Shown here: positions 47,491 to 62,785 of the stretch, in pieces
Position numbering within the stretch: position 1 is the first letter of the stretch
How the letters are laid out: each line of letters opens with the position of its first letter
Assembly (NCBI GenBank): GCA_012839295.1
Contig: DUNO01000033.1
Coordinates: 62,001-126,000, forward strand
DNA length: 64,000 bases
Direction: 5' to 3'
Origin: Clostridiales bacterium
GTDB lineage: Bacteria > Bacillota > Clostridia > Lachnospirales > Lachnospiraceae
Notes under the pieces: model-generated
The model's input: only the letters and a program-made list of their open reading frames with translations
The model's database searches: none
Told to the model about the DNA's origin: nothing
Made by a program: the position numbers and the translations under genes

Positions 47491-48288
47491 ATGAAGTCAG
47501 AGTACGAAATCAAAAAAGAAATTTGCGAGATAGGTAAAAGAATTTATAATAAGGGAATGGTTGCTTCTAACGACGGTAACATTTCCGTTAAGCTGAATGA
47601 TAATGAATTCTTATGTACACCTACTGGCGTAAGCAAAGGTTTTATGACACCGGAGTATATCTGCAAGGTTGACAAGGACGGTAAAGTTCTTCAGGCAAAC
47701 GGTAACTTCAAGCCTTCTTCAGAAATCAAGATGCATATGCGCGTTTACAAAGAAAGACCGGACGTCCAGTCTGTAGTACATGCCCATCCGATGTATGCAA
47801 CAAGCTTTGCTATTGCGGGTATCCCCTTGACACAGCCCATCATGCCGGAAGCAGTTATCTCCCTTGGCTGCGTACCGATCGCTGAGTATGGCACACCTTC
47901 TACAGAAGAGATTCCTGATGCAGTGTCCAAGTACCTTCAGTACTATGATGCAGTATTGTTAGAGAACCATGGTGCGTTAACCTTCTCTGATTCCCTGCTG
48001 TCAGCTTATCATAAGATGGAATCCGTAGAATTCTATGCGCAATTATTATATCTTTCCAAGCAGCTGGGCGGTCCCAAGGAATTATCCGATGCCCAGGTAC
48101 AGAGATTGTACGAGATCCGCAGACAGTTCGGTATGACTGGAAAGCATCCTGCCGATCTTTGCGCTAAAGTAAATAAGGGTGGTACAAGCTGCCATAACTG
48201 TGGTGGTCATGGAGCAACAGAAGCAAAGACCGACGACATTGTTTCCGAAATTGCTAAGAAAGTAATTGAGCAGTTAGGTTTAAAATAA
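47491..48288 (+). CDS. BMC class II aldolase (L-fuculose-phosphate aldolase type) with C-terminal targeting peptide
   Basis: A 265-residue zinc aldolase that would split L-fuculose-1-phosphate into DHAP and L-lactaldehyde inside the compartment. It shows SNDGNISVKL, the zinc ligands HAHPMYAT and LENHGALT, and the tyrosine region SAYHKMES. Beyond the catalytic domain, a linker with a CHNC pair leads to a C-terminal amphipathic helix DDIVSEIAKKVIEQLGLK, a typical encapsulation peptide. AGGAGG precedes ATG 47491. It is the first gene of the operon. Confidence 0.9.
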   Translation: MKSEYEIKKEICEIGKRIYNKGMVASNDGNISVKLNDNEFLCTPTGVSKGFMTPEYICKVDKDGKVLQANGNFKPSSEIKMHMRVYKERPDVQSVVHAHPMYATSFAIAGIPLTQPIMPEAVISLGCVPIAEYGTPSTEEIPDAVSKYLQYYDAVLLENHGALTFSDSLLSAYHKMESVEFYAQLLYLSKQLGGPKELSDAQVQRLYEIRRQFGMTGKHPADLCAKVNKGGTSCHNCGGHGATEAKTDDIVSEIAKKVIEQLGLK

Positions 48289-48339
48289 TCCATCTTCTCA
48301 CAAGGTTTGAAGAAGACATCAATGAGGAGGTAAAAAGTG

Positions 48340-49734
48340 ATGGAGAATGAAGCACTACTCCAGGATATTGTAAAGCAAGTAGTGAAAAAGCTGCAGGCAG
48401 AGACAGCGGGCGCCCCATCCGGCAGTAACGAGCTGGGCATCTTCGAGGATATGACGGAGGCCATTGAGGCTTCAATCAAGGCTCAGAAGGTTATGCAGAA
48501 GCTGACAATGGATGCAAGGGAAAGAATTATCAGCAATATCCGCAAGAAGACCATCGAGAATGCTGAAATACTTGCTAAGATGGCAGTAGAAGAGACAGGC
48601 ATGGGCAATGTCGGGGATAAGATCCTAAAGCACCAGCTTGCAGCAAATAAAACTCCGGGAACCGAGGATATTACGACAACAGCCTGGTCCGGAGACAGGG
48701 GTCTGACCCTGGTTGAGATGGGACCCTTTGGTGTAATCGGGGCAATCACCCCATGCACTAACCCGAGTGAGACCATCATCTGCAACACCATTGGTATGAT
48801 TGCCGGAGGTAATACGGTAGTATTTAATCCCCATCCGGCAGCAATCAGGACTTCCAAATATGCAGTAAGCATGTTGAATGAAGCATCCCTTGAGGTTGGC
48901 GGCCCTGCTAACATCGCAGTAACCGTCCAGAAGCCTACCATGGAAACCAGCAACATCATGTTAAAACATAAGGCAATCCAGTTAATCGCAGCAACAGGCG
49001 GCCCTGGCGTTGTAACGACAGTCCTCTCTTCCGGCAAGCGTGGAATCGGTGCCGGTGCCGGTAATCCTCCGGTACTTGTGGATGACACGGCGGATATCCA
49101 GAAGGCAGCAGCTGATATCGTAAACGGATGTACCTTTGACAACAATCTTCCCTGTATTGCAGAAAAAGAAATTGTAGCCGTTGAAACCATTGTGGATGAA
49201 TTAATTTACTTCTTAAAAGAGAACGGCTGCTACATGATTAATAAGGAAGAGCAGGAAAAGCTTACAGCTACAGTAATGATAAAAGGTGCGTTAAACAGAA
49301 AATGCGTCGGCAAGGATGCAATCACCCTGCTTTCCATGATTGGCATTGATGCACCAAAGGGAACACGCTGCATCATCTTTGAAGGAGAAAAGGAGCATCC
49401 TTTGATTGCAGAAGAGCTGATGATGCCGATCCTTGGTATTGTGAGGGCAAAGGATATTGACGATGCAATTGAGAAAGCAGTATGGCTTGAGCATGGCAAC
49501 CGCCATTCAGCCCACATGCATTCCAAGAATGTGGAAAACCTGACCAAGTTCGGCAAAGCAATCGACACGGCAATCTTTGTAAAGAATGCCCCATCCTATG
49601 CAGCCTTAGGCTTTGGCGGGGAAGGCTTCTGTACCTTCACGATTGCCAGCAGGACGGGTGAAGGACTTACTTCCGCAAGGACCTTTACAAAGGCGAGAAG
49701 ATGTGTAATGTCAGACAGCTTATGCATTCGTTAG
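48340..49734 (+). CDS. pduP: CoA-acylating propionaldehyde dehydrogenase (PduP-like)
   Basis: A 464-residue enzyme that oxidises propionaldehyde to propionyl-CoA with NAD. The N-terminal helix (ALLQDIVKQVVKKLQAE) is an encapsulation peptide followed by a linker. The dehydrogenase shows TPCTNPSETIICN and the catalytic cysteine, Cys272, in NNLPCIAEKE. Start ATG 48340 has GAGGAGG nine bases ahead. NADH made here can be used by the adjacent alcohol dehydrogenase, keeping cofactor recycling inside the shell. Confidence 0.93.
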   Translation: MENEALLQDIVKQVVKKLQAETAGAPSGSNELGIFEDMTEAIEASIKAQKVMQKLTMDARERIISNIRKKTIENAEILAKMAVEETGMGNVGDKILKHQLAANKTPGTEDITTTAWSGDRGLTLVEMGPFGVIGAITPCTNPSETIICNTIGMIAGGNTVVFNPHPAAIRTSKYAVSMLNEASLEVGGPANIAVTVQKPTMETSNIMLKHKAIQLIAATGGPGVVTTVLSSGKRGIGAGAGNPPVLVDDTADIQKAAADIVNGCTFDNNLPCIAEKEIVAVETIVDELIYFLKENGCYMINKEEQEKLTATVMIKGALNRKCVGKDAITLLSMIGIDAPKGTRCIIFEGEKEHPLIAEELMMPILGIVRAKDIDDAIEKAVWLEHGNRHSAHMHSKNVENLTKFGKAIDTAIFVKNAPSYAALGFGGEGFCTFTIASRTGEGLTSARTFTKARRCVMSDSLCIR

Positions 49735-49761
49735 ATTCGAAGCATTAAGAAGGAGGTAATG

Positions 49762-50985
49762 ATGGACATTAATTCAGAAAAGATAGAAGATATAGTAAAG
49801 CAAGTACTCCAGGAGCTGGGACAGACGCCTGCTGGGAAAGAGGGCTGTAGCGGTAACTGCTCCCACAAATCAAATGGTGGGATTCCAAAGACAAGCCGGG
49901 TGGCAATGTTAACGGGACTGGAGAAAATCGAGCTTCAGGAATATCCGATTCCAGAGCTTGGTGATGACGATATCCTGGTTAAGGTAGAAGGCTGCGGTGT
50001 ATGCGGTACGGATGCACATGAGTACAAAAGAGATCCCTTCGGTTTAATTCCTGTTGTATTAGGACATGAAGGTACCGGCGAGATCGTTAAGATGGGCAAG
50101 AACGTAAAGAAGGACAGTGCAGGCAAAGACCTTAAGGTTGGCGACAAAGTAGTTTCCTGTATGATCTTTAAGGATAACCCGGACATTACGATGTTCGACT
50201 TGAATAAGCAGAACGTTGGCGGCGCAGATGTATACGGACTTTTGCCGGATGACAGCACACATTTAAATGGCTGGTTTGCCGATTATATCGTAATCCGCGG
50301 CGGATCAACAATTTTCAATGTCAGCGACCTGGATCTTGAGTCAAGAATCCTCATCGAGCCATGCGCAGTGTTGATCCATGCAGTGGAAAGGGCAAAAACC
50401 ACTAACATCTTACGTTTCAACAGCAGAGTAGTAGTTCAGGGCTGTGGACCAATCGGTTTAATCTGTATTGCAGTTCTCCGCACCATGGGTATTGAGAATA
50501 TCGTAGCGGTGGACGGCGAAGAGAAGAGACTTGACTTTGCAAAAGAGATGGGCGCAACAAAAACAGTAAACTTCAAGGAACACAAGGGAATTGAAGCTCT
50601 GGCAGCAGCAATTGAAACAGCCTTTGGCGGTAAGCTTGCTGATTTCGCGTTCCAGTGTACAGGATCTCCGGCAGCACATTCCAATATCTATAAATTCATC
50701 CGCAGCGGCGGCGGTTTATGTGAACTTGGATTCTTCATCAATGGCGGGGATGCGACGATTAATCCCCACTTTGATATCTGTGCAAAAGAGATTACAACCG
50801 TTGGCTCATGGGTATATACCTTAAGGGATTATGCCACAACCTTTGATTTCTTAAAGAGGGCAAAGGGAATCGGATTACCGATGAACAAATTAATTACCCA
50901 TAAATATCCCTTAGATAAGATCAATGATGCATACGTAACAAACCTGAAGATGGAAGGCTTGAAAGTAACAGTTATAAATGAATGA
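49762..50985 (+). CDS. BMC zinc-dependent alcohol dehydrogenase (lactaldehyde reductase type)
   Basis: A 407-residue medium-chain dehydrogenase with an N-terminal encapsulation peptide (SEKIEDIVKQVLQELG) and a linker containing GCSGNCSHKS. The catalytic zinc site is GCGVCGTDAHEYK with LGHEGTG, and the NAD fold VVVQGCGPIGLICI. In this type of compartment it is expected to reduce L-lactaldehyde to 1,2-propanediol, or propionaldehyde to propanol. Most BMC alcohol dehydrogenases are iron-type (PduQ), so the zinc-type enzyme fits the fucose/rhamnose class. ATG 49759 and 49762 are adjacent; spacing favours 49762. Confidence 0.88.
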   Translation: MDINSEKIEDIVKQVLQELGQTPAGKEGCSGNCSHKSNGGIPKTSRVAMLTGLEKIELQEYPIPELGDDDILVKVEGCGVCGTDAHEYKRDPFGLIPVVLGHEGTGEIVKMGKNVKKDSAGKDLKVGDKVVSCMIFKDNPDITMFDLNKQNVGGADVYGLLPDDSTHLNGWFADYIVIRGGSTIFNVSDLDLESRILIEPCAVLIHAVERAKTTNILRFNSRVVVQGCGPIGLICIAVLRTMGIENIVAVDGEEKRLDFAKEMGATKTVNFKEHKGIEALAAAIETAFGGKLADFAFQCTGSPAAHSNIYKFIRSGGGLCELGFFINGGDATINPHFDICAKEITTVGSWVYTLRDYATTFDFLKRAKGIGLPMNKLITHKYPLDKINDAYVTNLKMEGLKVTVINE

Positions 50986-51072
50986 ACCAATTAATTCGAA
51001 AATGAATTAGCTTGTTAACTCATTTGGAATAAGGAAAGCAAAACGAAAGTTAATGCTAGAATGGAGTAAATA

Positions 51073-51387
51073 ATGGGAAATGCAGTTGGCATAATTGAAG
51101 TTTTCGGACTTGTTACAGCTTTCGTGGCTTGTGATGCCGGATGCAAAGCGGCTAACGTAACGGTGGAAGCCTTTGACCGTAATAAGCCTGCGAATGCTGA
51201 CAGTCTTCCGGTTCCACTCATTGTTACTGTAAAATTCCGCGGAAGCGTTGTTGATGTAAGGGCAGCAGTTGAAGCAGCACAGGAGGCGGCAAACCAATTG
51301 TCCGGAGTTATAACGACCCATGTTATCGCAGCGCCGGATCCGGCAATTGAGAAAATGCTTGCATTAAGTGGACTGGATAAAAGCTAA
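51073..51387 (+). CDS. BMC-H shell protein with enlarged pore-side loop
   Basis: A 104-residue hexameric shell protein. The BMC fold is clear (AVGIIEVFGLVTAFVACDAGCKAANV at the start, split in two elements, and THVIAAPDPAIEKML at the end). Where PduA-type proteins have the pore loop [10 protein letters not shown], this one has RNKPANADSLPVPLIVTV, about eight to nine residues longer, so the central pore is altered. TGGAGT precedes the ATG. It is the first of four ordinary-topology BMC-H genes in a row. Confidence 0.9.
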   Translation: MGNAVGIIEVFGLVTAFVACDAGCKAANVTVEAFDRNKPANADSLPVPLIVTVKFRGSVVDVRAAVEAAQEAANQLSGVITTHVIAAPDPAIEKMLALSGLDKS

Positions 51388-51420
51388 AAAATAGATTATA
51401 ATGGATAAATACAAAAACTA

Positions 51421-51549
51421 GGGGAAAACCCCTTAAGGAAACCCCATCAGGGCGGCAAGGGTCACTTGATGGAAAACATGATCAGGAGGAGAAATCCTCC
51501 AAAAAATCAGGAGGAGAAATCCTCCCCCAAAATCAGGAGGATTAGTAAA
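51421..51549 (+). repeat. Hairpin-rich leader with tandem AGGAGG...CCTCC units before the main BMC-H gene
   Basis: A 25-26-bp unit beginning ATCAGGAGGAGAAATCCTCC is present at 51481-51505 and 51506-51531, and a third partial copy (51532-51544) provides the gene's own ribosome site GGAGGATT. Each full unit is a hairpin, and each AATCCTCC can pair with the final ribosome site. GGGGAAAACCCC (51421-51432) is a further hairpin. Confidence 0.8.
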
Positions 51550-51825
51550 ATGGCTCAGGAAGCATTAGGAATGGTTGAAACTAGAGGTCTTACAGCAGCG
51601 ATTGAAGCAGCTGATGCAATGGTTAAGGCAGCAGAGGTAACTATGGTAGGAACAGAGAAGATCGGATCAGGCCTCGTAACAGTATTGGTTCGCGGAGATG
51701 TAGGTGCGGTTAAGGCAGCTACTGAGGTAGGGGCAGCGGCAGCTTCCAGATTAGGCGAGTTGGTTGCAACACATGTCATTCCCAGACCTCACTCAGATGT
51801 TGAGAAAATTCTTCCGAAATTTTAA
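51550..51825 (+). CDS. pduA: Major BMC-H shell protein (PduA-like)
   Basis: A 91-residue canonical hexamer: [20 protein letters not shown]-type start, the pore loop [10 protein letters not shown], and [14 protein letters not shown] at the end, nearly a PduA consensus. Start ATG 51550, 5 bases after GGAGGATT is not matched exactly but spacing is within range (GGAGG to ATG 9 bases). It is almost identical in sequence to the C-terminal domain encoded at 52652-52930. Confidence 0.95.
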
Positions 51826-51935
51826 GTTTCATAAGAACCCAGTTAACAAGTTGAAGGATAGGTAATTCGCTTGTAGAAACAAAGAATTTCCAGAAAACCT
51901 GTTAAGGTATATAAATCGAAAGGTATGGGTTACAG

Positions 51936-52247
51936 ATGAAATCATTAGGATTTATTGAAATTCCAAGTGTAACAGCCGCGGTAGATGCACTTGACATCAT
52001 GTGCAAGACAGCGGATGTGGAATTCGTTACCTGGGAAAGGAAATTAGGCGGACGTCTCGTTACCATCATTATACAAGGAGACGTAGCAGCTGTAAAAGAA
52101 GCAGTGGAAGTGGCTGCCAGTAAAGCGATGAAGCCTTGTGTACATGCAGTAATTCCAAATCCCCATGAAGAAACCATGAGAATAGTAAAGCTTAGTGCCA
52201 GCAGAATTCATGGGAAAGAATCAACGGATGACCTGATGGAGGTCTAG
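51936..52247 (+). CDS. BMC-H shell protein
   Basis: A 103-residue hexamer-type shell protein (MKSLGFIEIPSVTAAVDALDI) with pore-side loop ERKLGGRLVTI and end motif AVIPNPHEETMRIV, then a short polar tail (ASRIHGKESTDDLMEV). The pore sequence LGG differs from the PduA type IGSG, so it may pass another substrate. It has no strong AGGAGG; AAGGTATG lies upstream. Confidence 0.92.
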   Translation: MKSLGFIEIPSVTAAVDALDIMCKTADVEFVTWERKLGGRLVTIIIQGDVAAVKEAVEVAASKAMKPCVHAVIPNPHEETMRIVKLSASRIHGKESTDDLMEV

Positions 52248-52324
52248 GATCACGGATATCCGAAGGCACTATAAAATGTCATGGTAATTTGTGCCGCCCT
52301 TGGTAGCGGCGGAATGGAGATAAT

Positions 52325-52930
52325 ATGGCAGATTCAAGAAAGCGTGGTGCAAAGAATAATTCTGGAACACCTGCAGCAGTATCAGCAAATGAAGCTACAA
52401 AAGAGGCAGTACAGGAAGTTAATAATGAAGTAAAAACCAATATAAGCAATGAAGTAAAAACCGACGTAAGTAATGAAGTAAAAACCAGTGTAAGTAAGAA
52501 AGCAAAAACCAAAGAAGCGACTAAAAAAGCTACAAAAGAGCAAAGACAGGAAACAAAGGACAGCATAGACGAAGCAAAAAGTGAAGCAGTAACAACTACA
52601 AACAAAACCAATAACAAAGAAATAGCAAACGCTATCAAGGAGGAAAAGAAAATGGCTCAGGAAGCATTAGGAATGGTTGAAACAAGAGGTTTAGTAGCAG
52701 CAATCGAAGCAGCAGATGCTATGTTAAAGGCTGCAAACGTTACTTTGGTAGGAACAGAGAAAATCGGTTCCGGTCTCGTATCTGTTATGGTCAGAGGAGA
52801 TGTAGGTGCAGTTAAGGCAGCGGTTGAATCAGGTGCAAACTCCGCATCCAAGCTTGGTGAATTAGTAGCTACACACGTAATCCCAAGACCTCATACTGAT
52901 GTTGAGAAGATTCTTCCAGCTTTAAAATAA
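52325..52930 (+). CDS. BMC-H shell protein with 109-residue repetitive N-terminal extension and internal start
   Basis: A 201-residue protein. Residues 1-109 are hydrophilic, rich in K, E, T, N and A, with eight-residue repeats N-E-V-K-T-x-(I/V)-S at about residues 34-60 encoded by 24-bp units. Residues 110-201 are a complete PduA-like BMC-H domain ([14 protein letters not shown] to ILPALK). There are two good starts: ATG 52325 with GGAG five bases ahead, and ATG 52652 with a perfect AAGGAGG (52637-52643) eight bases ahead. Both a long and a short hexamer subunit are therefore likely, as with PduB/PduB'. The extension lacks a typical encapsulation helix; its job is unknown. Confidence 0.88.
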
Positions 52931-53007
52931 TTTAAACGTAGAATCAAATCAAGTGAGTCAACATATTGATTCATCTTGTATACACTAATCGCTATTATAA
53001 TAGTTAT

Positions 53008-53106
53008 CTTTTATCAGGGCTGTTGCATGATTATCCTTTCCTAACAAGGCAGAGATGGTTGCGTAACAGCCTGAGATAAAAGGTTGAAGGAAAAACACTT
53101 TCAACC
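53008..53106 (+). other. Two hairpins between shell gene and pduL
   Basis: A long stem pairs CTTTTATC and GGCTGTT (53008-53024) with AACAGCC and GATAAAAG (53065-53082). A second, GGTTGAA/TTCAACC, spans 53082-53106. There is no U-tract, so an mRNA-processing or stability role is more likely than termination. Confidence 0.6.
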
Positions 53107-53148
53107 TACTTATTCAGGTCTGTTCAATTTTTGGATAAGGATCAAAAA

Positions 53149-53868
53149 TTGAAAGACATGGGTATAAAATCTGAAAGAGTGCAGGTGAATCCCTTGGAAG
53201 AAAAAACAATAGAAATGGTTACGAAATTAGTTATGGAAGCGATGAAACAGAATGATTCCGTAAAAAAAGAAGGAAGGGCGTCTTCCCTAGAAAAAAAAGA
53301 AGGATATGTGGTTCCCATCGGCGTATCAGCAAGACATGTACATGTATCCCAGGCAGATCTTGAGACACTTTTTGGCAGGGGATATACACTCACAAAGAAA
53401 AAAGAGCTGATGGGTGGACAATATGCGGCCGAAGAACAGGTTACGATTGTAGGTATTAAACTTAGGGCAATTGAGAATGTCAGAATATTAGGTCCCGTAC
53501 GTAAGGAAACCCAGGTTGAGATTTCCGCTACGGATGCACTTAAATTAGGAGTAAAAGCGCCGATCAGAGATTCGGGCGATACCAAGGGTTCTGCACCGAT
53601 TGCTATTGTTGGACCAAAGGGCGCCTTATATTTGAACGAAGGTTGTATTATCGCAAAAAGACACATCCATATGTCTCCGGAAGATGCGAAGGCAGCAGGA
53701 GTGAAAAATGGAGATGTAGTTTCCGTAAAAGCAGAAAATGCCAGAGGGACTATCTTCAATCATGTGACAATCCGTGTAGATGAAAGCTTTACAACGGAGA
53801 TGCATATTGATACGGATGAGGCGAATGCAGCGAGCATAATTACAGGTAATACTGTAACGATTATATAG
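53149..53868 (+). CDS. pduL: PduL phosphotransacylase
   Basis: A 239-residue BMC phosphotransacylase converting propionyl-CoA to propionyl-phosphate and recycling CoA inside the shell. An N-terminal amphipathic helix (LEEKTIEMVTKLVMEAMKQ) serves as encapsulation peptide. Two PduL domains carry zinc-binding histidines (VSARHVHVSQADL and AKRHIHMSPEDA). I propose TTG 53149 as start because AAGGA (53137-53141) is seven bases upstream; ATG 53158 and TTG 53131 are alternatives with worse spacing. Confidence 0.93.
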   Translation: MKDMGIKSERVQVNPLEEKTIEMVTKLVMEAMKQNDSVKKEGRASSLEKKEGYVVPIGVSARHVHVSQADLETLFGRGYTLTKKKELMGGQYAAEEQVTIVGIKLRAIENVRILGPVRKETQVEISATDALKLGVKAPIRDSGDTKGSAPIAIVGPKGALYLNEGCIIAKRHIHMSPEDAKAAGVKNGDVVSVKAENARGTIFNHVTIRVDESFTTEMHIDTDEANAASIITGNTVTII

Positions 53869-53876
53869 AAAAATGA

Positions 53877-53919
53877 GCTGCAGCAAAGGAAGCCTCAGGG
53901 CTTTTACCTTTGCTGCAGC
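53877..53919 (+). other. Perfect 13-bp hairpin between pduL and pduN
   Basis: GCTGCAGCAAAGG (53877-53889) pairs with 53907-53919, with an inner AAGCC/GGCTT stem. It lies directly after the pduL stop and has no U-tract. Confidence 0.65.
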
Positions 53920-53955
53920 CTCACATAGATTCTGTTATACATTGGGAGGTAGAGT

Positions 53956-54225
53956 ATGATTATTGGTAAGGTCGTGGGGACTGTTGTTGCAACAAGGAAA
54001 AATGATAAGCTTGTCGGCAGCAAATTGTTGATTGTTGAACCCTTTGACAATATGGATAAGGGAAAAACATCAGGAAGATTTATCGCAATTGATAATGTCG
54101 GCGCAGGCGTAGGTGAAAATGTCCTGGTGGTATTAGGCAGCGGTGCCAGAGTCGGCTGCAATATGAAAGACTCGCCCATCGATGCGGCAATTGTAGGAAT
54201 TGTTGATACAATTACAGAAATGTAG
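53956..54225 (+). CDS. pduN: BMC-P pentameric vertex protein (PduN/EutN/CcmL)
   Basis: An 89-residue pentamer that caps the shell vertices. It begins MIIGKVVGTVVATRKNDKL and contains LLIVEPFD, FIAIDNVGAGVGENVLVVLGSGAR, split over strands, and ends PIDAAIVGIVDTI, all standard for the family. GGGAGGT precedes the ATG. It is the only vertex protein in the locus. Confidence 0.95.
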   Translation: MIIGKVVGTVVATRKNDKLVGSKLLIVEPFDNMDKGKTSGRFIAIDNVGAGVGENVLVVLGSGARVGCNMKDSPIDAAIVGIVDTITEM

Positions 54226-54239
54226 AAAAATACGGAAAA

Positions 54240-54308
54240 AGTCCGAGCGAAAGCTTACAAAGGCTGGGAGCTTGACAGCCTTTGAAAACTTAAGCGGATG
54301 ACCGGACT
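54240..54308 (+). other. Nested hairpins between pduN and the PduS-like gene
   Basis: AGTCCG / CGGACT (54240-54245 / 54303-54308) encloses AAAGGCT / AGCCTTT (54259-54265 / 54276-54282). Confidence 0.55.
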
Positions 54309-54335
54309 CAAAGTGTTATTAAATTGGAGACTTAC

Positions 54336-55667
54336 ATGGATATTCAGGAATTAAGAGATATTGTTAGAGAATGTGGTATCGCAGGTGCAGGCGGGGCGGG
54401 TTTTCCAAGCTACGCCAAGCTGGATCAAAAGGCAGATACAATTCTGTTAAACTGTGCAGAGTGTGAGCCGCTGTTAAAAGTTCATAGACAATTACTGCAA
54501 AAGTATCCATATGAAATAATGTCTACTTTACAATTGATTGCAGATGTTCTTGAGGTGAAGGAAGTAATCATCGGAGTAAAGGAAGCCTATGAAAAGACAG
54601 TAAACGCAGCCAGGACCTATTTATCCTTCTTTTCCAAGCTTAGTTTAAGCCTGCTGAAGGAAATATATCCGATGGGTGATGAAGTCCAGCTGATTTACGA
54701 GACCCTGGGAAAAGTGGTGCCACCCGGAAGTATTCCCCTTGAGGTAGGGGTAGTGGTATTTAATGTAGAGACCATTTACAATATTTATTGTGCTGTCAAC
54801 CAGAAAGCGCCGGTGTCTGCAAAATATCTTACCATAGCAGGAGCGGTAAAGAACCCAATTACTGTTTTGGCTCCAATCGGAATGGCAGTGGAGGATCTGG
54901 TGGAGCTTGCCGGCGGGGCAACAGCCGGGGAGCCGGCCTATATCATGGGAGGGCCAATGACCGGTGAAGTTGTTGCGCCTTATGACACGGTTACAAAGAC
55001 AACGAATGCCATCCTTGTATTTCCAAAGAACCATCCGGTGGTATTGCAGAAGCAGGGAAGCACCTCCATCGATATGAAGAAGGCAATGGCTTCCTGTTGC
55101 CAGTGTGAAATGTGTACGGATTTATGTCCAAGAAATCAATTGGGCCATCCGATTACACCACACCTGTTTATGCGGGCGGCAACCAGCGGAACCACCCAGA
55201 AACTGGATCCGTTTTTGAGCACAATGTTTTGCTGCTCCTGCGGCCTTTGTGAAATGTATGCCTGTCCCCAGGGTCTGGCACCAAGAAAGCTGATTACGGA
55301 ATATAAGAATGGTTTACGCAGGAAGGGGATACCGATCCCTAAGGGAGTGCCCCTAAAGCCGGTGAACCAGATGAGGGAATACAGGACAGTTCCGATGGAA
55401 CGTCTGATTTCCAGATTGGGACTATCAGAGTACAATGTGGATGCGCCATTGACAGAGGAAACAATTCCTGCGAAGCAGGTTCGGATAAAATTAAATATGC
55501 ACATCGGAGCGGGGGCAGTTCCGGTTGTCCATAAGGGTGATATTGTTCAGCCTGGCGATCTGATTGCCAAGGCCGAGGAGGGAAAGCTGTCTCTTCCGGT
55601 TCATGCATCAATCGCTGGTGAAGTTCTTGAGATAAATGACATGGAGATCCTTGTCAGGGCAAGATAA
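54336..55667 (+). CDS. pduS: PduS/RnfC-like iron-sulfur flavoprotein
   Basis: A 443-residue electron carrier. The RnfC/NuoF-type fold is seen at GIAGAGGAGFPSYAK and NCAECEPLL; a SLBB region follows; two [4Fe-4S] motifs are CCQCEMCTDLCPRNQ and CCSCGLCEMYACPQG. In the B12-dependent Pdu system PduS reduces cobalamin. Here the dehydratase is a glycyl-radical enzyme, so it more likely moves electrons through the shell to reoxidise NADH or feed the activase. Start ATG 54336 has TTGGAGA ahead. It pairs with the downstream BMC-T. Confidence 0.9.
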   Translation: MDIQELRDIVRECGIAGAGGAGFPSYAKLDQKADTILLNCAECEPLLKVHRQLLQKYPYEIMSTLQLIADVLEVKEVIIGVKEAYEKTVNAARTYLSFFSKLSLSLLKEIYPMGDEVQLIYETLGKVVPPGSIPLEVGVVVFNVETIYNIYCAVNQKAPVSAKYLTIAGAVKNPITVLAPIGMAVEDLVELAGGATAGEPAYIMGGPMTGEVVAPYDTVTKTTNAILVFPKNHPVVLQKQGSTSIDMKKAMASCCQCEMCTDLCPRNQLGHPITPHLFMRAATSGTTQKLDPFLSTMFCCSCGLCEMYACPQGLAPRKLITEYKNGLRRKGIPIPKGVPLKPVNQMREYRTVPMERLISRLGLSEYNVDAPLTEETIPAKQVRIKLNMHIGAGAVPVVHKGDIVQPGDLIAKAEEGKLSLPVHASIAGEVLEINDMEILVRAR

Positions 55668-55775
55668 ATAAATAGTTTCAGGTAATTGCGCCTATTGTAT
55701 AACAGGTTTCACTGGCTACTTAAGTTTCTCAATTGCCTAAAGCGACAGTTTAAATGAGAGGATGTTAATTAGGAT

Positions 55776-56324
55776 ATGGGTAAAGCAATCGGAATGGTTG
55801 AATATAAAACAGTATCTGCCGGAATTCATGCAGCGGATTTGATGGTGAAGACAGCCGACATCGAAATTATCGAAGCGCAGACCGTCTGTCCGGGAAAGTA
55901 TATCGCTATTTTCTGCGGAGATTTGAGCGCGGTAAATGCCAGTGTAGAGGCTGCACGCAGTACCTGTGGGCAACATCTGATCGATAGCTTTGTTCTTGGC
56001 AATCCTCATGAGGGGATCTTTCCGGCGATCTATGGGACCTCTAAGGTAGAAAAGATTAATGCGCTGGGAATCCTCGAAACCTTCTCAGCTCCCTCCATTA
56101 TTGTTGCGGCTGATGAAGCGGCTAAGTCCTCCCAGGTTGAGCTGATTGAGCTGCGTATGGCCAGGGGAATGTGCGGGAAGTCCTACATGTTCCTGACTGG
56201 TGAAATTGCGGCGGTAGAAGCAGCAATTGACAAGGCGAAGAAGGCCGTAGGTGAAAATGCCATGCTGCTGGATTCAACAGTGATTGCAAACCCGGATGAT
56301 AAATTGTGTAAATGTATTTTATGA
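55776..56324 (+). CDS. pduT: BMC-T tandem-domain shell protein (PduT type)
   Basis: A 182-residue pseudohexamer-forming trimer of two BMC domains (MGKAIGMVEYKTVSAGI and ALGILETFSAPSIIVA). Cys38, in QTVCPGKY, is at the same position as the cysteine that binds a [4Fe-4S] cluster in the pore of Citrobacter PduT, so this shell tile probably passes electrons, fitting the preceding PduS-like gene. A 9-bp imperfect inverted repeat (55680-55688 / 55730-55738) fills the gap upstream. AGAGGATG with ATTAGG precedes the ATG. Confidence 0.92.
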   Translation: MGKAIGMVEYKTVSAGIHAADLMVKTADIEIIEAQTVCPGKYIAIFCGDLSAVNASVEAARSTCGQHLIDSFVLGNPHEGIFPAIYGTSKVEKINALGILETFSAPSIIVAADEAAKSSQVELIELRMARGMCGKSYMFLTGEIAAVEAAIDKAKKAVGENAMLLDSTVIANPDDKLCKCIL

Positions 56325-56422
56325 TTTGCGGGTAAATAGAAAAACTTTTGTTGGGTGAATTGTTTTATGATGAGTTGAATAAAAAAGAATCCTTTGATGT
56401 AGGGATTGGGCAGGGGGTCAAT

Positions 56423-57193
56423 ATGCTGGCAATTGAAAGAAGAAACAAAATACTGGCAATTTTACAAAAGGAAAACAGAGTACTGGTTAGTGATTTGAGT
56501 AAGGCCTTTGATGTTACGGAGGAGACGATCCGACGTGACCTGGAAAAGCTGGAGCAGGAGGGTTTGGCGAAGAAAACCTATGGCGGGGCCATTGCGACGG
56601 AGAATGCCTATGCAGACCAGCCCTTTACTGTAAGAAAAACCTCCAACGTATTAAAAAAGCAGGCAATTGCTGAAATTGTGGCTTCCATTATACAGGATGG
56701 CGACCATATTATGCTTGATTCAAGCTCCACCTGCGGATATATTGCAAAGCAGCTAAAGAATAAAAAGAACCTGACTATTATTACGAATTCCGTAGAGATT
56801 TTAGTAGATGCGACTGAGACTTCCGGTTGGAAGGTTATTTCAACAGGAGGCTTATTACGTGAGGGATCCCTGTCCCTGCTCGGCCATCAGGCGGAACAGG
56901 TGGTAAGCAATTACCATGTGGATAAGGCAATTATCTCCTGCAAGGGAGTGGATTTAGAGAGAGGGATTTCGGATTCGACGGAATTGGAAGCGTATATCAA
57001 ACAGCAGATGATGTCATCGGCTAACACGACCATCCTGGCAGTTGACAGCTCCAAGCTGGAGAAGACGTCCTTTATTAAGATATGCGACCTTAATAAGGTA
57101 GATGTTATCGTTACGGACGAGGTTCCGGACGAAAGCTGGAACGAGGTTATGGCCTCAAAGAATGTGGAATTGATTACAAAGGTGAATGCCTAG
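56423..57193 (+). CDS. DeoR-family regulator of the BMC operon
   Basis: A 256-residue repressor: DeoR winged helix (MLAIERRNKILAILQKENR, then EETIRRDLEKLEQEGLAKKTYGG) and a DeoRC phosphosugar domain (LDSSSTCGYIAKQL, SCKGVDLERGISDSTELEA). Fuculose-1-P or rhamnulose-1-P would be natural inducers; this is inferred. I start at ATG 56423, with AGGGGG upstream, rather than an in-frame start at 56348. It lies between pduT and the dehydratase, and its likely operators are the 27-bp repeats at 47347 and 47430. Confidence 0.9.
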   Translation: MLAIERRNKILAILQKENRVLVSDLSKAFDVTEETIRRDLEKLEQEGLAKKTYGGAIATENAYADQPFTVRKTSNVLKKQAIAEIVASIIQDGDHIMLDSSSTCGYIAKQLKNKKNLTIITNSVEILVDATETSGWKVISTGGLLREGSLSLLGHQAEQVVSNYHVDKAIISCKGVDLERGISDSTELEAYIKQQMMSSANTTILAVDSSKLEKTSFIKICDLNKVDVIVTDEVPDESWNEVMASKNVELITKVNA

Positions 57194-57275
57194 AACTAAT
57201 TTATAAACTTAAGCTGATTACCCAGGTTTTTTCAAATCGGTTCCGTGGGTTGAAAAGGAATAAATGGAGGTTGTT

Positions 57276-59798
57276 ATGAACAAGTATTATGATGCTGATA
57301 TAGTAAAGAGCCCCAGGATAACGAAATTAGTTGATAGTTTGTTTGCAGGCAAGCCCCGTATTGAGGCCGACCGTGCCGTCTTGCTCACCGAAAGCTATAT
57401 GCAGACGGAGAAGGAGCCGATTATTACAAGACGTGCGAAGGCTTTTGAGCATATTTTAAAGTATATCCCTATTGTGATCCGTGAGGATGAATTGATTGTG
57501 GGCAGTTCGACGATTGCACCCAGAAGCTGTCAGGTATTCCCCGAGTATTCCTATGCCTGGCTGGAGCAGGAATTTGAAACGGTTGCAACCCGCAGTGCGG
57601 ATCCCTTCGAGATTTCTGAGGAAGCCAAGGAGACCTTACATAAGGTATACCGCTATTGGAACGGCAAGACGACAAGTGAATTAGCCTCCTCCTACATGGC
57701 TCCGGAAGCGAAGCAGGCGATTGACCATAATATCTTTACCCCGGGTAACTATTTTTATAATGGAATCGGGCATGTAACTGTTAATTATGGCAAGGTGCTT
57801 GCCATTGGCTATGAAGGTATTATTAAGGAGGCCCAGGAGGCCTTGGATCAGCTGAAGGTTTCAGATATGGATTACAATAAGCGCAGCAGGTTCCTGGAGG
57901 CTGTCATCCTAAGCTGCCAGGCAGTGGTTACTTATGCCCAGCGCTATGCCCAGCTGGCATTGGAAGAGGCAAAGAGGTGTTCTGATCCTGTCCGTAGGGA
58001 AGAGCTGGCACAGATTGCAAAGAATTGTGCGAGAGTGCCAAGGTACGGCGCAACCTCCTTTTATGAGGCCTGCCAGTCCTTTTGGTTTATCCAGATGCTT
58101 CTCCAGGTAGAATCCAGCGGACATTCCATTTCTCCGGGACGTTTTGACCAGTATATGTATCCTTATTATGCGGCAGATCTGAAGTCAGGGAAGATTACCC
58201 GGGAATTTGCCCAGGAATTAATCGATTGCATCTGGATAAAATTAAATGACTTAAATAAGGTCCGTGATGCGGCTTCTGCAGAAGGCTTTGCAGGCTACAG
58301 CTTATTCCAGAACCTGATCGTTGGCGGACAGAATGCCCAGGGCATGGACGTGACCAATGACCTGTCCTTTATGTGCATTGAAGCCTCCATGCATGTCATG
58401 CTGCCCCAGCCCTCCTTATCGATCCGTATTTGGAACGGGACACCCCATGAATTATTTGTGAAAGCCGCAAAGCTGACACGTACCGGTATTGGCTTACCGG
58501 CATACTATAATGACGAAGTAATCATCCCTTCCCTGCAAAACAGGGGCTTATCCTTAGAGGATGCAAGGGATTATAATATTATCGGCTGTGTGGAGCCCCA
58601 GAAATCCGGTAAAACCGATGGATGGCATGATGCTGCCTTTTTCAACATGTGCCGGCCATTGGAGCTGGTATTTAGTAACGGCATGGATAAGGGCGTGCAG
58701 GTTGGTGCAAAGACCGGGGAGGTAGAGCAGATGGAGAGCTTTGAAGAATTCTTCGGGGCTTACCAAAAGCAGATGAATTACCTGATTGGCTTAATGGTAA
58801 ATGCCATTAATGCAATCGATGTAGCCCATGGTGAGAGGTGCCCCCTTCCCTTCCAGTCCAGTATGGTTGAAGAATGTATTGGCAGAGGAAAAAGCATGCA
58901 GGAGGGCGGTGCCCTATATAATTTCACCGGTCCCCAGGGCTTTGGTATTGCGAACATGGCGGATTCCTTATATGCAATTAAAAAGTTAGTATTTGAAGAA
59001 AAAAAGATTACTTTAGCCGAGTTCAAGAAAGCTCTCGAGATGAACTATGGCAAGGGTGTTGATACAGCCCTGGCAGAAAGGATTACAAAGGAAGTGGTCC
59101 GCAGCCTTATTGAAGCAGGGCGTAAGGTCACGGAAGATGAAATTGCCGAGGTTTATAAAATAGCATTAGAAAGCGGAGTTTCAGAAGCAGACCGGAAGAA
59201 GTATGACGATTTACTTGAGGCCATTAATGAGCTTCCCAAGTTTGGCAATGACATTCCCGAGGTGGATTTATTTGCAAGGGAGGTTGCATACACATATACG
59301 AAACCGCTGGAGACCTTTAAAAATCCCCGCGGGGGACGGTATCAGGCCGGGCTGTACCCGGTATCGGCAAATGTGCCCCTGGGCGCTCAGACCGGGGCAA
59401 CTCCCGATGGCAGGCTGGCGTATAGGCCGGTGGCTGACGGTGTATCCCCTTCCTCAGGAAAGGATACCCACGGACCCACTGCCGCAGCAAATTCCGTTGC
59501 TAAGCTGGATCATTACATTGCATCAAATGGAACCTTATTCAATCAGAAGTTCCATCCTTCCGCTCTAAGCGGCGTGAAGGGGCTTGAAAACTTTGTGGCT
59601 TTAATCAGAAGCTATTTCGACCAGAAGGGCAGCCATATGCAGTTTAATGTAATCAGCAGGGACACCCTGCTGGATGCCCAGAAGAATCCTGAGAAATATA
59701 AGAACCTGGTGGTTCGGGTAGCGGGTTATAGTGCATTATTTACGTCCTTATCAAGATCCTTGCAGGAGGATATTATTGCCAGGACGGAGCAGCATTAA
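57276..59798 (+). CDS. Glycyl-radical 1,2-propanediol dehydratase
   Basis: An 840-residue B12-independent diol dehydratase that turns (S)-1,2-propanediol into propionaldehyde. The active-site cysteine is Cys438 in NIIGCVEPQ, and the glycyl radical is Gly817 in VVRVAGYSA. CVEP rather than CVEL/CxxS contexts groups it with propanediol and glycerol dehydratases. The N-terminus (KYYDADIVKSPRITKLVDSL) resembles the Roseburia enzyme and shows no separate encapsulation helix. TGGAGG precedes ATG 57276. The stop codon is inside the first unit of a tandem repeat. The activase is downstream. Confidence 0.93.
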   Translation: MNKYYDADIVKSPRITKLVDSLFAGKPRIEADRAVLLTESYMQTEKEPIITRRAKAFEHILKYIPIVIREDELIVGSSTIAPRSCQVFPEYSYAWLEQEFETVATRSADPFEISEEAKETLHKVYRYWNGKTTSELASSYMAPEAKQAIDHNIFTPGNYFYNGIGHVTVNYGKVLAIGYEGIIKEAQEALDQLKVSDMDYNKRSRFLEAVILSCQAVVTYAQRYAQLALEEAKRCSDPVRREELAQIAKNCARVPRYGATSFYEACQSFWFIQMLLQVESSGHSISPGRFDQYMYPYYAADLKSGKITREFAQELIDCIWIKLNDLNKVRDAASAEGFAGYSLFQNLIVGGQNAQGMDVTNDLSFMCIEASMHVMLPQPSLSIRIWNGTPHELFVKAAKLTRTGIGLPAYYNDEVIIPSLQNRGLSLEDARDYNIIGCVEPQKSGKTDGWHDAAFFNMCRPLELVFSNGMDKGVQVGAKTGEVEQMESFEEFFGAYQKQMNYLIGLMVNAINAIDVAHGERCPLPFQSSMVEECIGRGKSMQEGGALYNFTGPQGFGIANMADSLYAIKKLVFEEKKITLAEFKKALEMNYGKGVDTALAERITKEVVRSLIEAGRKVTEDEIAEVYKIALESGVSEADRKKYDDLLEAINELPKFGNDIPEVDLFAREVAYTYTKPLETFKNPRGGRYQAGLYPVSANVPLGAQTGATPDGRLAYRPVADGVSPSSGKDTHGPTAAANSVAKLDHYIASNGTLFNQKFHPSALSGVKGLENFVALIRSYFDQKGSHMQFNVISRDTLLDAQKNPEKYKNLVVRVAGYSALFTSLSRSLQEDIIARTEQH

Positions 59799-59925
59799 GA
59801 GTAACGCAGAACAGCATTAGGGGCTGTGCGGAATAGCATTAGGAATAGCACAGAACAGCATTAGGAAGCAGTACAGAACAGCATTAGGAACAGTACGGAA
59901 TCAGCATTAGAGGCAGCACAGGCAG
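59790..59925. repeat. Six degenerate 22-23-bp tandem repeats starting at the dehydratase stop codon
   Basis: Units begin CAGCATTA(A/G) and end near CAGAA: 59790-59811, 59812-59833, 59834-59855, 59856-59878, 59879-59901 and 59902-59925. The TAA stop of the dehydratase is inside the first unit. The array ends just before the activase ribosome site, separating it from the dehydratase by about 150 bases. Confidence 0.9.
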
Positions 59926-59947
59926 GTGGAAAAGGAGAATGACAGAG

Positions 59948-60739
59948 ATGAATATGGAGAAAAAAGCCGTAACAGGCCGCATATTTGACATACAGAGGTT
60001 TTCCATCCACGACGGCCCGGGAATCAGGACAATCATTTTCCTAAAGGGCTGTGGGCTAAGATGTAAATGGTGCTGTAACCCGGAATCCCAGAGACCTGAA
60101 ATACAGAGCATGAAGGTGCAGGGAAAAGAGAAGATCATCGGCCGGGATGTTACGGTCCAGGAAGTGATGGAAGAGATCAAGAAGGATTATAATTATTACC
60201 GCAGATCAGGAGGCGGGGTTACCTTATCCGGTGGAGAAGCCTTGTTACAACCGGATTTCGCAGTGGAGCTGCTGAAGGCCTGCCAGGATTTTGGAATAAG
60301 TACGGCAATAGAGACAGCGGGCTTTGCCAGCTTTGACGTAATCGGGAGGTATCTGCCCTATGTTGATGTCTTTCTGATGGATATAAAGCATATGGACTGC
60401 AAAAAGCATGAGCAGTTTACAGGGCGGCCTAATGAATTGATTTTAGAGAATGCCCGTAAGATAGCGGAGGCTGGTGCGGATCTGATCATAAGGGTGCCGG
60501 TTGTTCCCACCTTTAATGAAACCAGGGAAGAAATTATGGATATTGCTAATTTTGCCAAAACCCTTCCGGGAGTAAAGGAGCTTCATCTATTGCCATATCA
60601 CCGGTTGGGTCAGGATAAATATGAAGGACTTGGAAGAACCTATGATTTAGCGGAGCTTGTACCTCCGGACAACGTGCATATGAGTATGTTGGCAGAAGCA
60701 GCAGGCAGGTCAGGCTTGCAATGCCAAATTGGAGGATGA
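59948..60739 (+). CDS. Glycyl-radical enzyme activase (radical SAM)
   Basis: A 263-residue activating enzyme that abstracts hydrogen from Gly817 of the dehydratase. It shows FDIQRFSIHDGPGIRT, the cluster motif CGLRCKWC and GGVTLSGGEALLQ. Between the cluster and GGG motifs there is only a short linker without the eight cysteines of the ferredoxin-like insert found in many diol-dehydratase activases, so it is PFL-activase-like in build. Starts ATG 59939, 59948 and 59954 are in frame; AAAGGAG at 59931-59937 fits 59948 best. Confidence 0.92.
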   Translation: MNMEKKAVTGRIFDIQRFSIHDGPGIRTIIFLKGCGLRCKWCCNPESQRPEIQSMKVQGKEKIIGRDVTVQEVMEEIKKDYNYYRRSGGGVTLSGGEALLQPDFAVELLKACQDFGISTAIETAGFASFDVIGRYLPYVDVFLMDIKHMDCKKHEQFTGRPNELILENARKIAEAGADLIIRVPVVPTFNETREEIMDIANFAKTLPGVKELHLLPYHRLGQDKYEGLGRTYDLAELVPPDNVHMSMLAEAAGRSGLQCQIGG

Positions 60740-60783
60740 TAAATTAATACATTTCTAAAAAATTAAAAATGGAGGTTTTGGCT

Positions 60784-61611
60784 ATGACGATTCTGGATAC
60801 CAAAATTGTAAAAGATTTTATTCGAATGGCTGATGATGGATTTGCGCAGGGGTGGCATGAGAGGAACGGCGGAAATTTATCCTACCGTATCAAGCCGGAG
60901 GAAGTAGAAGCTGTAAGATCCAGGTTGAACTGTCCTGGTGATTGGACTCCGATCGGCACCAGTGTGCCGGGACTTGCAGGTGAATTTTTCCTGGTTACCG
61001 GTGGCGGGAAATATTTTAGAAATATTGCAATTGACCCTGAGACCTGTATTACGATTATTGAAATTGACGAATCCGGTGATAATTACAGAATCCGTTGGGG
61101 ACTTGTGGAGGGAGGAAGGCCTACCAGCGAGCTTCCCACCCATTTAATGAACCATGAGGTGAAAAAACGGGTGTCAAACGGTGTGCACCGGGTCATTTAT
61201 CATGCCCACACTACCAATGTGATAGCCCTTACCTTCGTGCTCCCCCTCTCGGATGAGGTGTTTACAAGGGAATTATGGGAGATGGCTACGGAATGTCCGG
61301 TAGTATTTCCCGCCGGCGTAGGTGTAATCGGCTGGATGGTTCCCGGTGGCAGGGATATTGCGATTGAGACCAGCAAGCTGATGGAGAAATACGATGTTGC
61401 CATCTGGGCACATCATGGAATGTTCTGCTCCGGTGCAGATTTTGACCTGACCTTTGGTCTGATGCATACCGTTGAGAAGTCGGCGGAGATTCTGATTAAG
61501 GTATTGTCCATGAGACATGGCAAGGAACAGACGATTTCGGATAATAATTTTAGAAGTCTTGCGAAGGATTTCAAATTGACCCTGGATGAAAAGTTCCTTT
61601 ATACAAAATAG
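60784..61611 (+). CDS. rhaD: L-rhamnulose-1-phosphate aldolase
   Basis: A 275-residue class II aldolase splitting rhamnulose-1-P into DHAP and L-lactaldehyde. RhaD features: WHERNGGNLSYR, FLVTGGGKYFRN, the zinc motif YHAHTTN and the second histidine IWAHHGMFCSG. The C-terminus ends LDEKFLYTK without a targeting helix, unlike the first aldolase of the operon, so it may act outside the shell or enter by another route. TGGAGG precedes ATG 60784. With both aldolases, the locus handles fucose and rhamnose. Confidence 0.93.
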   Translation: MTILDTKIVKDFIRMADDGFAQGWHERNGGNLSYRIKPEEVEAVRSRLNCPGDWTPIGTSVPGLAGEFFLVTGGGKYFRNIAIDPETCITIIEIDESGDNYRIRWGLVEGGRPTSELPTHLMNHEVKKRVSNGVHRVIYHAHTTNVIALTFVLPLSDEVFTRELWEMATECPVVFPAGVGVIGWMVPGGRDIAIETSKLMEKYDVAIWAHHGMFCSGADFDLTFGLMHTVEKSAEILIKVLSMRHGKEQTISDNNFRSLAKDFKLTLDEKFLYTK

Positions 61612-61720
61612 AAATTGATATCAGAAATAAGTGATGAAAATAAATACTCAGCAACAGATATGCTGCAAAGAATAAGAAGGCAGCAAGGCAGAAGGGTTGC
61701 CCAGTACAAGGAGTGGTATC

Positions 61721-62098
61721 GTGGATTTAGAGAAATTGCTACAGAATGAAGGCAAGATGAGAATCATCCAGGAATTGGTTCCTGGTAAACAGGTTACTTT
61801 GGCACATGTCATTGCGAACCCGGATCAAATATTATACAAAAAATTAGGACTGAATCCGGAACTGGACTATCATAGTGCGGCAATCGGAATCCTGACCATA
61901 TCCCCCAGTGAAACTGCTATTATTGCCAGCGACATTGCCATAAAGTCTGCAGGCGTAGATCTTGGGTTCGTTGACCGCTTCAGCGGAACCGTAATTATAA
62001 CCGGAACCGTGTCCCAGGTAGAAACAGCGCTTTTGGCCATTGTGGAATATGTAGAAGAAAAGCTAGGCTTTGTGGTATGCAGCATTACGAAAACCTGA
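61721..62098 (+). CDS. pduU: Circularly permuted BMC-H shell protein (PduU/EutS type)
   Basis: A 125-residue permuted BMC-H. The short N-terminal strand before MRIIQELVPGKQVTLAHVIANPD forms the beta-barrel cap that closes the pore in PduU and EutS. AAIGILTISPSETAIIASDIA, VDLGFVDRFSGTVIITG-like and the end VVCSITKT match EutS closely. The start is GTG 61721 with AAGGAG (61708-61713) seven bases ahead; TTG 61697 lacks such a site. It is the last shell gene before the terminator pair. Confidence 0.92.
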   Translation: MDLEKLLQNEGKMRIIQELVPGKQVTLAHVIANPDQILYKKLGLNPELDYHSAAIGILTISPSETAIIASDIAIKSAGVDLGFVDRFSGTVIITGTVSQVETALLAIVEYVEEKLGFVVCSITKT

Positions 62099-62132
62099 TG
62101 TTCTTAAAACCTTTGTTAAATAGTTTAAATAT

Positions 62133-62160
62133 CGAGAAAATCTGCCTTCTGATTTTCTCG
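62133..62160 (+). terminator. Hairpin after pduU
   Basis: CGAGAAAATC (62133-62142) pairs perfectly with GATTTTCTCG (62151-62160). There is no U-tract; it is followed by a second, stronger hairpin. Confidence 0.5.
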
Positions 62161-62183
62161 GCATAAGCCACATAATAAGCTAT

Positions 62184-62228
62184 ATATATGAAAAAGAGCG
62201 CGGGTATACTGCGCCCTTTTTCATATAT
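62184..62228. terminator. Strong hairpin between pduU and the GTPase gene
   Basis: ATATATGAAAAAG-A-GCGC pairs with GCGC-C-CTTTTTCATATAT, with one mismatch and a 9-nt loop. The A/T runs in the stem make it a bidirectional terminator candidate that would reduce transcription into the GTPase gene. Confidence 0.65.
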
Positions 62229-62332
62229 GGATATTCATTTTATTGCATATGGGATGACGGAGATTGGGATGAAGAAAGGCCTGTTTAATTTTCTGGATAG
62301 GTCATTGAAAATAGAAAGTCAGGGGTATTAGG

Positions 62333-62785
62333 ATGAAACGAATTATATTGATGGGGCGGACTGGCGCAGGAAAGACAACTTTGACACAGGCTCTGAAAGG
62401 GGAAAAAATAAAGTATCATAAGACACAATATACGAACTTTTATAATTCCATTATTGACACACCCGGGGAATATGCGGAGAGCAAGCATCTTGGCAGGGCA
62501 CTTGCCTTATATTCTTATGAGGCAGATATCGTAGGCTTATTAATCAGCGCTACGGATAATTATTCCCTGATACCTCCGAATGTCACTTGCATGGCTAACA
62601 GGGAGGTCATCGGAATTGTCACCCAGATGGAGCATCCGGAGGCAGTACCGAAAAGGGCGGAAGCCTGGCTGCGTCTGGCAGGCTGCGAAAAGATATTCTT
62701 TGTAGATTCAAAGTCCGGCGAAGGAGTTGATGAGCTGCTGGATTACCTGCAATATGACAGGAATGAGATTGATAGTAGGGTTTAG
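62333..62785 (+). CDS. pduV: PduV/EutP-family small GTPase-like protein
   Basis: A 150-residue P-loop protein (Walker A GRTGAGKTT; switch region IIDTPGEYAESKHLGRAL; later FVDSKSGEGVDELLDYL). It belongs to the EutP/PduV family found in many BMC loci; roles proposed are compartment positioning or, for some EutP, acetate kinase-like activity. It follows a strong hairpin and may be expressed at a lower level than the shell genes. AGGGGT precedes the ATG. Confidence 0.92.
   Translation: MKRIILMGRTGAGKTTLTQALKGEKIKYHKTQYTNFYNSIIDTPGEYAESKHLGRALALYSYEADIVGLLISATDNYSLIPPNVTCMANREVIGIVTQMEHPEAVPKRAEAWLRLAGCEKIFFVDSKSGEGVDELLDYLQYDRNEIDSRV

Follow-up and report, generated by a model that had tools for sequence, protein, structure and literature searches.

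The locus described here raises the question of whether one reading frame can supply a BMC shell with two versions of the same tile, a short one and a long one that carries an N-terminal arm, and of what such an arm might do. Our study covers a stretch of 64,000 nucleotides (hereafter, the window), which is part of contig C36 (G000:C36) of a 6.36 Mb genome, and it centers on the gene that we call B (52325-52930, forward strand), which opens at ATG 52325, runs for 201 codons and stops at 52928-52930. The best explanation as a whole, to which we assign a probability of roughly 0.55, is that two subunits are made from this frame, that a minority of the tiles are armed and that the arms point outward.

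The B protein contains a single PF00936 stretch at residues 114-189 (Pfam, E 8.8e-30), and its residues 111-198 align without permutation to residues 10-97 of PduA (3ngk; 88 residues, E 8.7e-37), which classifies it, at the level of sequence, as a PduA-type BMC-H shell protein with one non-permuted domain. The original prediction had described a repeat-bearing arm of 109 residues in one frame with a PduA-like BMC-H domain, an ATG at 52652 behind AAGGAGG, and eight-residue repeats derived from 24-bp DNA units, and our analyses confirmed each of these features (Table 1). On the gene tree, the B of the window has a Herbinix MAG and Anaerocolumna (Lachnospiraceae) as its nearest rows.

The first half of the surrounding locus comprises an aldolase, AldDH, ADH, the BMC-H genes H1, A, Hk and B, PduL and PduN; the second half comprises a PduS-like gene, a PduT-like gene, DeoR, a glycyl radical enzyme with its activase, a second aldolase, a PduU-like gene and a PduV-like gene (62333-62785). 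Judged by its gene content, the locus is of the GRM5 type, for fucose/rhamnose: a glycyl radical enzyme, a class II aldolase, PduS, PduT and DeoR were identified and no GrpU was recognised, the features of the type being taken from a GRM review (PMC6325248) and a BMC taxonomy (PMC4207490). The glycyl radical enzyme and the BMC genes were assigned by Pfam, while the aldolases, PduS and DeoR were named from their translations; the PduT-like protein matches its NCBIfam model with a score below the cut-off of that model. No GxCPQ motif was seen by eye in the BMC-H proteins of the window. The two aldolase-like genes (47491-48288 and 60769-61611) possibly serve different sugar phosphates.

Table 1. 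Coordinates in the window of the locus, of the two genes preceding B and of the elements of B.
Feature	Position	Strand	Basis or remark
GRM5-type locus	47491..62785	+	Pfam, ten genes; NCBIfam, six; remainder named by translation
Paralogue A, PduA-like BMC-H	51550..51825	+	Pfam; armless in most other loci; internal control
Hk, BMC-H between A and B	51936..52247	+	Pfam; counterpart of Cphy_1181 by gene order
Weak Shine-Dalgarno-like GGAG of the arm start	52316..52319	+	5-nt spacing; pairing -6.4 kcal/mol
N-terminal arm, 109 codons, K/E/T/N/A-rich, predicted disordered	52325..52651	+	Composition, pLDDT
24-bp tandem repeat, 3.8 copies, NEVKTxxS octads	52423..52512	+	TRF, 81% matches
Internal Shine-Dalgarno AAGGAGG, in frame as Lys-Glu-Glu	52637..52643	+	8-nt spacing to ATG 52652; pairing -11.4 kcal/mol
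Short form, complete PduA-like BMC-H with its own ATG 52652	52652..52930	+	PF00936 match; ATG conserved

The arm was followed through the best 80 of 488 confirmed relatives, which together with the window provide 81 B genes; since these loci came from a contig scan whose query contained the arm, the frequency of arms among them is inflated. The genes H1, A, Hk, B, PduL and PduN are consecutive in 66 of these 80 loci. The exceptions are seven loci in which Hk is missing between A and B (L065, L066, L068, L077, L092, L097 and L101), one without A (L062), two without PduL (L111 and L125) and four with a partial gene order (L071, L087, L104 and L120), which is at least partly due to records that are short on one side. 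In the seven rearranged loci, A adjoins B, and B keeps an in-frame extension of 28-54 codons. The other GRM5 genes found near B are PduS (76 of the 80 loci), PduT (72), AldDH (71), DeoR (62) and aldolase (41). The glycyl radical enzyme appears in none of the 80, its gene sitting past the 4-kb flanks, which usually end before the aldolase as well, so the tentative GRM5 label of these loci rests on PduS, PduT, AldDH and aldolase.

Within this set, an open in-frame extension of at least 20 codons precedes the domain in 67 of the 81 B genes against seven of the 77 A paralogues (eight of 78 if L064, omitted for a run of N, is counted), and the median open extension is 55 codons over all 81 B genes against 6 over the 77 A genes. 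The A of the window is one of the seven extended ones, with 47 open codons and no clear second start site. A strict count, which drops L054, L077, L101 and L116 because their called arm start lies more than 30 nt inside the Hk match, leaves 63 of the 81 B genes with arms of 20-114 residues (median 56). In L116, the extension looks like Hk translated in a different frame; in L077 and L101, A and B are not separated by Hk, so the Hk match is probably misassigned in both and their removal is conservative. From the stop of the Hk match to the arm start, the distance, measurable in 61 of the 67 arms, has a median of 12 nt and is negative, that is, an overlap, in 10 of the 61; in the window it is 77 nt.

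A chance open frame was considered as the origin of the arm and ruled out, both by the A paralogues and by the stops in the other frames: the 63 strict arms contain no stop in the 3733 codons of the coding frame, against 200 and 257 stops in the other two, which are stop-free in only 3 and 8 of the 63 arms. The mode of change was read from 16 disjoint close pairs, 14 of which, with an arm identity of at least 0.6, were pooled (L047/L051 and L048/L049, below that value, were left out of the codon counts). Gap runs in the arms are multiples of three in 21 of 21 cases in the pooled pairs and in 26 of 26 over all 16; in the pooled arms, the first, second and third codon positions differ 133, 128 and 242 times; and the pooled codon differences are 140 synonymous and 233 nonsynonymous in the arms, compared with 233 and 7 in the domains. 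These comparisons of sequences demonstrate that the arm is coding and indicate that translation runs through arm and domain in one frame, while the arm sequence drifts fast. The expected variation in arm length was borne out between species, with gap runs in multiples of three: the arm has 92 residues in L046, the nearest relative, and 109 in the window, whose 24-bp units belong to a segment that L046 has in a shorter version.

The remaining 14 of the 81 B genes are armless, with an extension of fewer than 20 codons (2-16 open codons), and on a tree of the 81 B domains (77 rows counted) 10 changes are required to explain which genes have an arm. Arms have thus been gained or lost repeatedly while the internal start persisted, and the arm is dispensable. 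Upstream of six of the 14 armless genes, no obvious remnants of lost arms were seen by eye. Such turnover, like the excess of nonsynonymous changes in the arms, would suit a reading in which only the short form matters and the arm is a tolerated leader, derived from the 5' untranslated region, that aids coupling to Hk; an arm start weaker than the internal one, as described below, would suit it as well. We consider this reading unlikely, because the composition, the frame, the length of tens of residues and a start of the MAEEKK/MADEKK type recur across genera, because the arms have a third-position excess, and because translation coupling needs no 20-114 open codons. In addition, the frame of the arm contains no stop ahead of the internal ATG, which means that every arm that is made is fused to the domain.

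Special attention was given to the internal start. Its codon is ATG in all 67 extended B genes of the best-80 set and the window. Among their last six arm codons, AAGGAGG occurs in 61 of the 67 genes and GGAGG in 66, whereas 9.1 and 9.8 genes are expected when synonymous codons are redrawn by each gene's own usage; out of 20000 simulations, the highest totals reached 20 and 22, a tail that is not a strict probability since the rows are related. The redraw, like the site energies given below, was computed on the 67 arms and not on the strict 63. When the arms are collapsed to 35 dissimilar ones, AAGGAGG is found in 31 and GGAGG in 34. At codon -5, all 61 Lys are encoded by AAG, and at codon -4 all 64 Glu are encoded by GAG, against AAA:AAG of 423:175 and GAA:GAG of 287:106 in the rest of the arms. 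Codon choice at this place is therefore fixed far beyond the genes' own usage, which demonstrates selection on a nucleotide signal and is what a ribosome site in use would be expected to leave behind. With the ATG and AAGGAGG so widely kept, and with arms in 63 of the 81 genes by the strict count, the alignment of orthologues showed both starts to be present and conserved, as had been anticipated.

It is important to note that the same codons could be viewed otherwise: if only the long form were made, the internal AAGGAGG-ATG might be an unused ancestral relic or merely the codons of a Lys-Glu-Glu-Lys motif. The KEEK residues are indeed conserved themselves, and the A paralogues and armless B genes have their start codon at this very position, preceded by a similar site, which would fit a relic. 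Two observations, together with the fixed synonymous choice, make this view highly improbable. First, GGAGG persists where the residues differ (L050, L052, L055, L101 and L121; L087 is the one gene of the 67 that lacks it). Second, the predicted fold of the window leaves AAGGAGG and the internal AUG largely unpaired, and RNA structure at the site is no more stable there than in shuffled sequences (z 0.03).

A survey of the order with the domain alone gave matches in 59 of 245 genomes at E <= 1e-25, and the surrounding locus was retrieved for 30 of the best matches. Of these 30 loci, 17 (window included; L128 is doubtful) have arms that reach 20 codons or more, and L149 has 66 open codons, yet only 7 from a usual start codon. 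GGAGG is kept in 14 of the 17 arms and missing in L144, L147 and L155. In L144, L147 and L149 (lineage f2), the internal site reads GAGAGGAGAAAA, without GGAGG, so the internal start of this lineage may be weaker. The B genes of L134, L138, L139, L142 and L143 (family code f22) have very Lys/Glu-rich arms of 61-123 codons and a domain start MEALGM, and AAGGAGG precedes the internal ATG in them as well.

The two starts differ in strength. Pairing with the anti-Shine-Dalgarno sequence is stronger at the internal site in 63 of the 67 genes, with one tie, and amounts in the window to -11.4 kcal/mol against -6.4 kcal/mol at the arm start. The description of two strong start codons thus stood for the internal one, behind its AAGGAGG, and failed for the arm start, which depends on a GGAG at a spacing of 5 nt. 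In the window, the arm-start AUG lies in a predicted stem, in a fold no stronger than those of shuffled sequences (z -0.28). Since the internal site is the stronger one, a major short form and a minor long form of B are predicted from the sequence.

The model that we prefer, with armed and unarmed tiles, can be stated as follows. Ribosomes would start mainly at ATG 52652 and produce an ordinary PduA-type hexamer subunit, and a less frequent start at ATG 52325 would produce the same subunit with a disordered arm of 109 residues. Long and short chains may share hexamers, which would leave a minority of tiles with one or few arms. We infer such a ratio of long to short chains, such mixed hexamers, a cytosolic side for the arms, which would most likely project into the cytosol, and a role in spacing or positioning.

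A compartment protein in two forms has a counterpart in the beta-carboxysomes, where CcmM, a Rubisco scaffold, occurs as a long and a short form by internal initiation; B shares the two forms of one protein, but CcmM is not a shell hexamer. PduB is a two-domain BMC-T protein, and B, with its one PF00936 stretch, does not have two BMC domains; no PduB model is among the five NCBIfam matches of protein P0001. B does have two starts in the same frame, as judged from its sequence, and resembles the Salmonella pair PduB/PduB', a long and a short shell protein that differ by an N-terminal extension (PMC9132943). The PduB extension has 37 residues and links the core and the shell (PMC9132943), whereas the B arm has 109 and its terminus is expected on the other face.

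The composition of the 67 arms is rich in K (19.5%), A (14.7%), E (13.4%) and T (12.6%), with almost no aromatics. In a charge-hydropathy plot, the 63 strict arms are without exception on the disordered side, where the domain is not, and an AlphaFold2 monomer model built on 40 aligned B proteins gives a pLDDT of about 42-53 for residues 1-100 and 82-90 for residues 121-190, the start of the domain being doubtful (57-58 at residues 101-120). Across the same 40 proteins, conservation within the arm is confined to its two ends. The net charge is positive in 56 of the 63 strict arms and negative in 7, and it is just +5 over the 109 residues of the window arm, which makes simple nucleic-acid binding doubtful. 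Two other identities were tried and rejected. As a known domain, the arm of the window and seven other arms gave only weak Pfam matches at E <= 1 (best E 0.084, all below the cut-off). As an encapsulation peptide, the arms find no support, being comparatively poor in hydrophobic residues by the measure used: the maximum of ILVMF per 15-mer has a median of 4 over the 63 arms, compared with 6-7 for four putative peptides picked by eye from the window locus. The window arm reaches 4 ILVMF with a moment of 0.44. Four arms reach 6 (moment 0.10-0.28), and L048 and L051, with 5 ILVMF and moments of 0.64-0.65 in one amphipathic stretch each, are partial exceptions.

The side of the shell on which the arm lies depends on the orientation of the tile. 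PduA has its N-terminus on the concave face, the side turned toward the cytosol in recombinant shells (Lee et al., PMC6109187), and since B is of the PduA type and non-permuted, its arm is expected outside; the same paper also notes opposing evidence in native systems, so that a concave-out arrangement is unproven for native organelles. Given this orientation, and with no helix resembling an encapsulation peptide by the measure used, the suggested roles in tethering cargo or shaping the inside of the compartment find little support. We propose instead a disordered, mostly basic, cytosol-facing arm that may space or position the organelle.

The luminal alternative deserves attention in its PduB-like version, in which the arm would replace the N-terminus of PduB and link the enzyme core to the shell. 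Loss of the 37-residue extension of PduB, which PduB' lacks, separates the shell from its cargo (PMC9132943), and some concave-in evidence is cited in PMC6109187. PduB was not recognised on contig C36, where the PduT-like protein is the sole two-domain BMC protein and scores far under the cut-off of the PduB model; two more two-domain BMC proteins are encoded in the genome, on contigs C4 and C33, so a PduB may be present away from this contig. The lack of a PduB on the contig and the unsettled orientation are the reasons for which we retain this alternative as a rival. We nevertheless think it has a rather small chance of being right, given the outward N-termini of PduA-type proteins in recombinant shells, the scarcity of hydrophobic residues in the arms, the lack of a conserved motif besides the arm ends in the 40 aligned proteins, and the 14 of 81 B genes that manage without an arm.

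For the outward arm, the closest parallel is PduK of the Salmonella Pdu system, a PduA-like BMC-H protein with a flexible extension and a proposed positioning role on the outside (PMC9132943). This extension was proposed to act on the concave, outward side, and Pdu organelles remain polar without PduK (PMC9132943). In PduK, however, the extension is C-terminal and has a Cys-rich motif (PMC12058022), whereas B has no C-terminal extension with a Cys motif; its arm is N-terminal, free of Cys in the window and optional through the second start. The B arm would then be an N-terminal counterpart of the PduK extension, dosed by two start sites. Against this explanation, a role in placing Pdu organelles had been suggested before for PduV (PMC8262871), and with a PduV-like gene in the window locus a second positioning device may be unnecessary.

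A related gene has been described in Clostridium (Lachnoclostridium) phytofermentans, where Cphy_1182 occupies the same position in the same type of locus (GRM5). Its similarity to PduA was reported over residues 73-161 only (Petit 2013, PMC3557285), so its extension of 72 residues was visible already in 2013, and its expression relative to glucose rose 73.7-fold on fucose and 47.4-fold on rhamnose (PMC3557285). The excerpts of that paper contain no discussion that we could find of the 72 N-terminal residues, of an additional start codon or of conservation. L062, from strain KNHs2131 of Clostridium phytofermentans, has an arm of 72 residues and AAGGAGG and, unlike the window, no A paralogue; the N-termini predicted for its long and short forms read MDDK... 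and MAQEALG.... We also found no discussion of a B-type arm in excerpts of the GRM review (PMC6325248), the BMC catalog (PMC8217296), the BMC taxonomy (PMC4207490), a survey of gut BMCs (PMC6620236) and a study of rhamnose in C. beijerinckii (PMC6384099). According to the catalog, BMC-H extensions reach 200 residues and are mostly C-terminal (PMC8217296). As for a two-start BMC-H gene, no report was found among the open-access papers covered by our searches, mostly judged by titles and the beginnings of abstracts.

The spacing and partitioning of catabolic compartments were called unclear in 2021 (PMC8262871), and PduK has since been implicated for Pdu (PMC9132943). A wider hypothesis, which we offer as tentative and rather doubtful, is that GRM5 organelles carry a spacing or positioning device in a shell tile, with the strength of the ribosome site setting the fraction of hexamer subunits that bear a disordered, usually basic arm on the cytosolic face, and with gain and loss of in-frame repeats tuning its length in each species, so that dispersal of the organelles may do without a separate McdAB-like adaptor. 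One codon change at either start would split the long tile from the short one in a cultivable soil clostridium, which makes the role of a shell-borne disordered arm directly testable. B also suggests a natural route to arms of variable length displayed on part of a shell, and it provides a case of codon-level conservation of an internal ribosome site within a shell gene across many genera.

Finally, a different arrangement was observed upstream of the paralogue A, where a 25-bp unit is repeated 2.4 times (51481-51541). Two copies of it fold as GGAGGA-GAAA-UCCUCC hairpins, hiding Shine-Dalgarno-like sequences just 5' of the real site, and the whole fold of this region has a z of -1.29. Among 78 A loci, the hairpin pattern is present in the window, with two copies, and in L046, with one copy, only.
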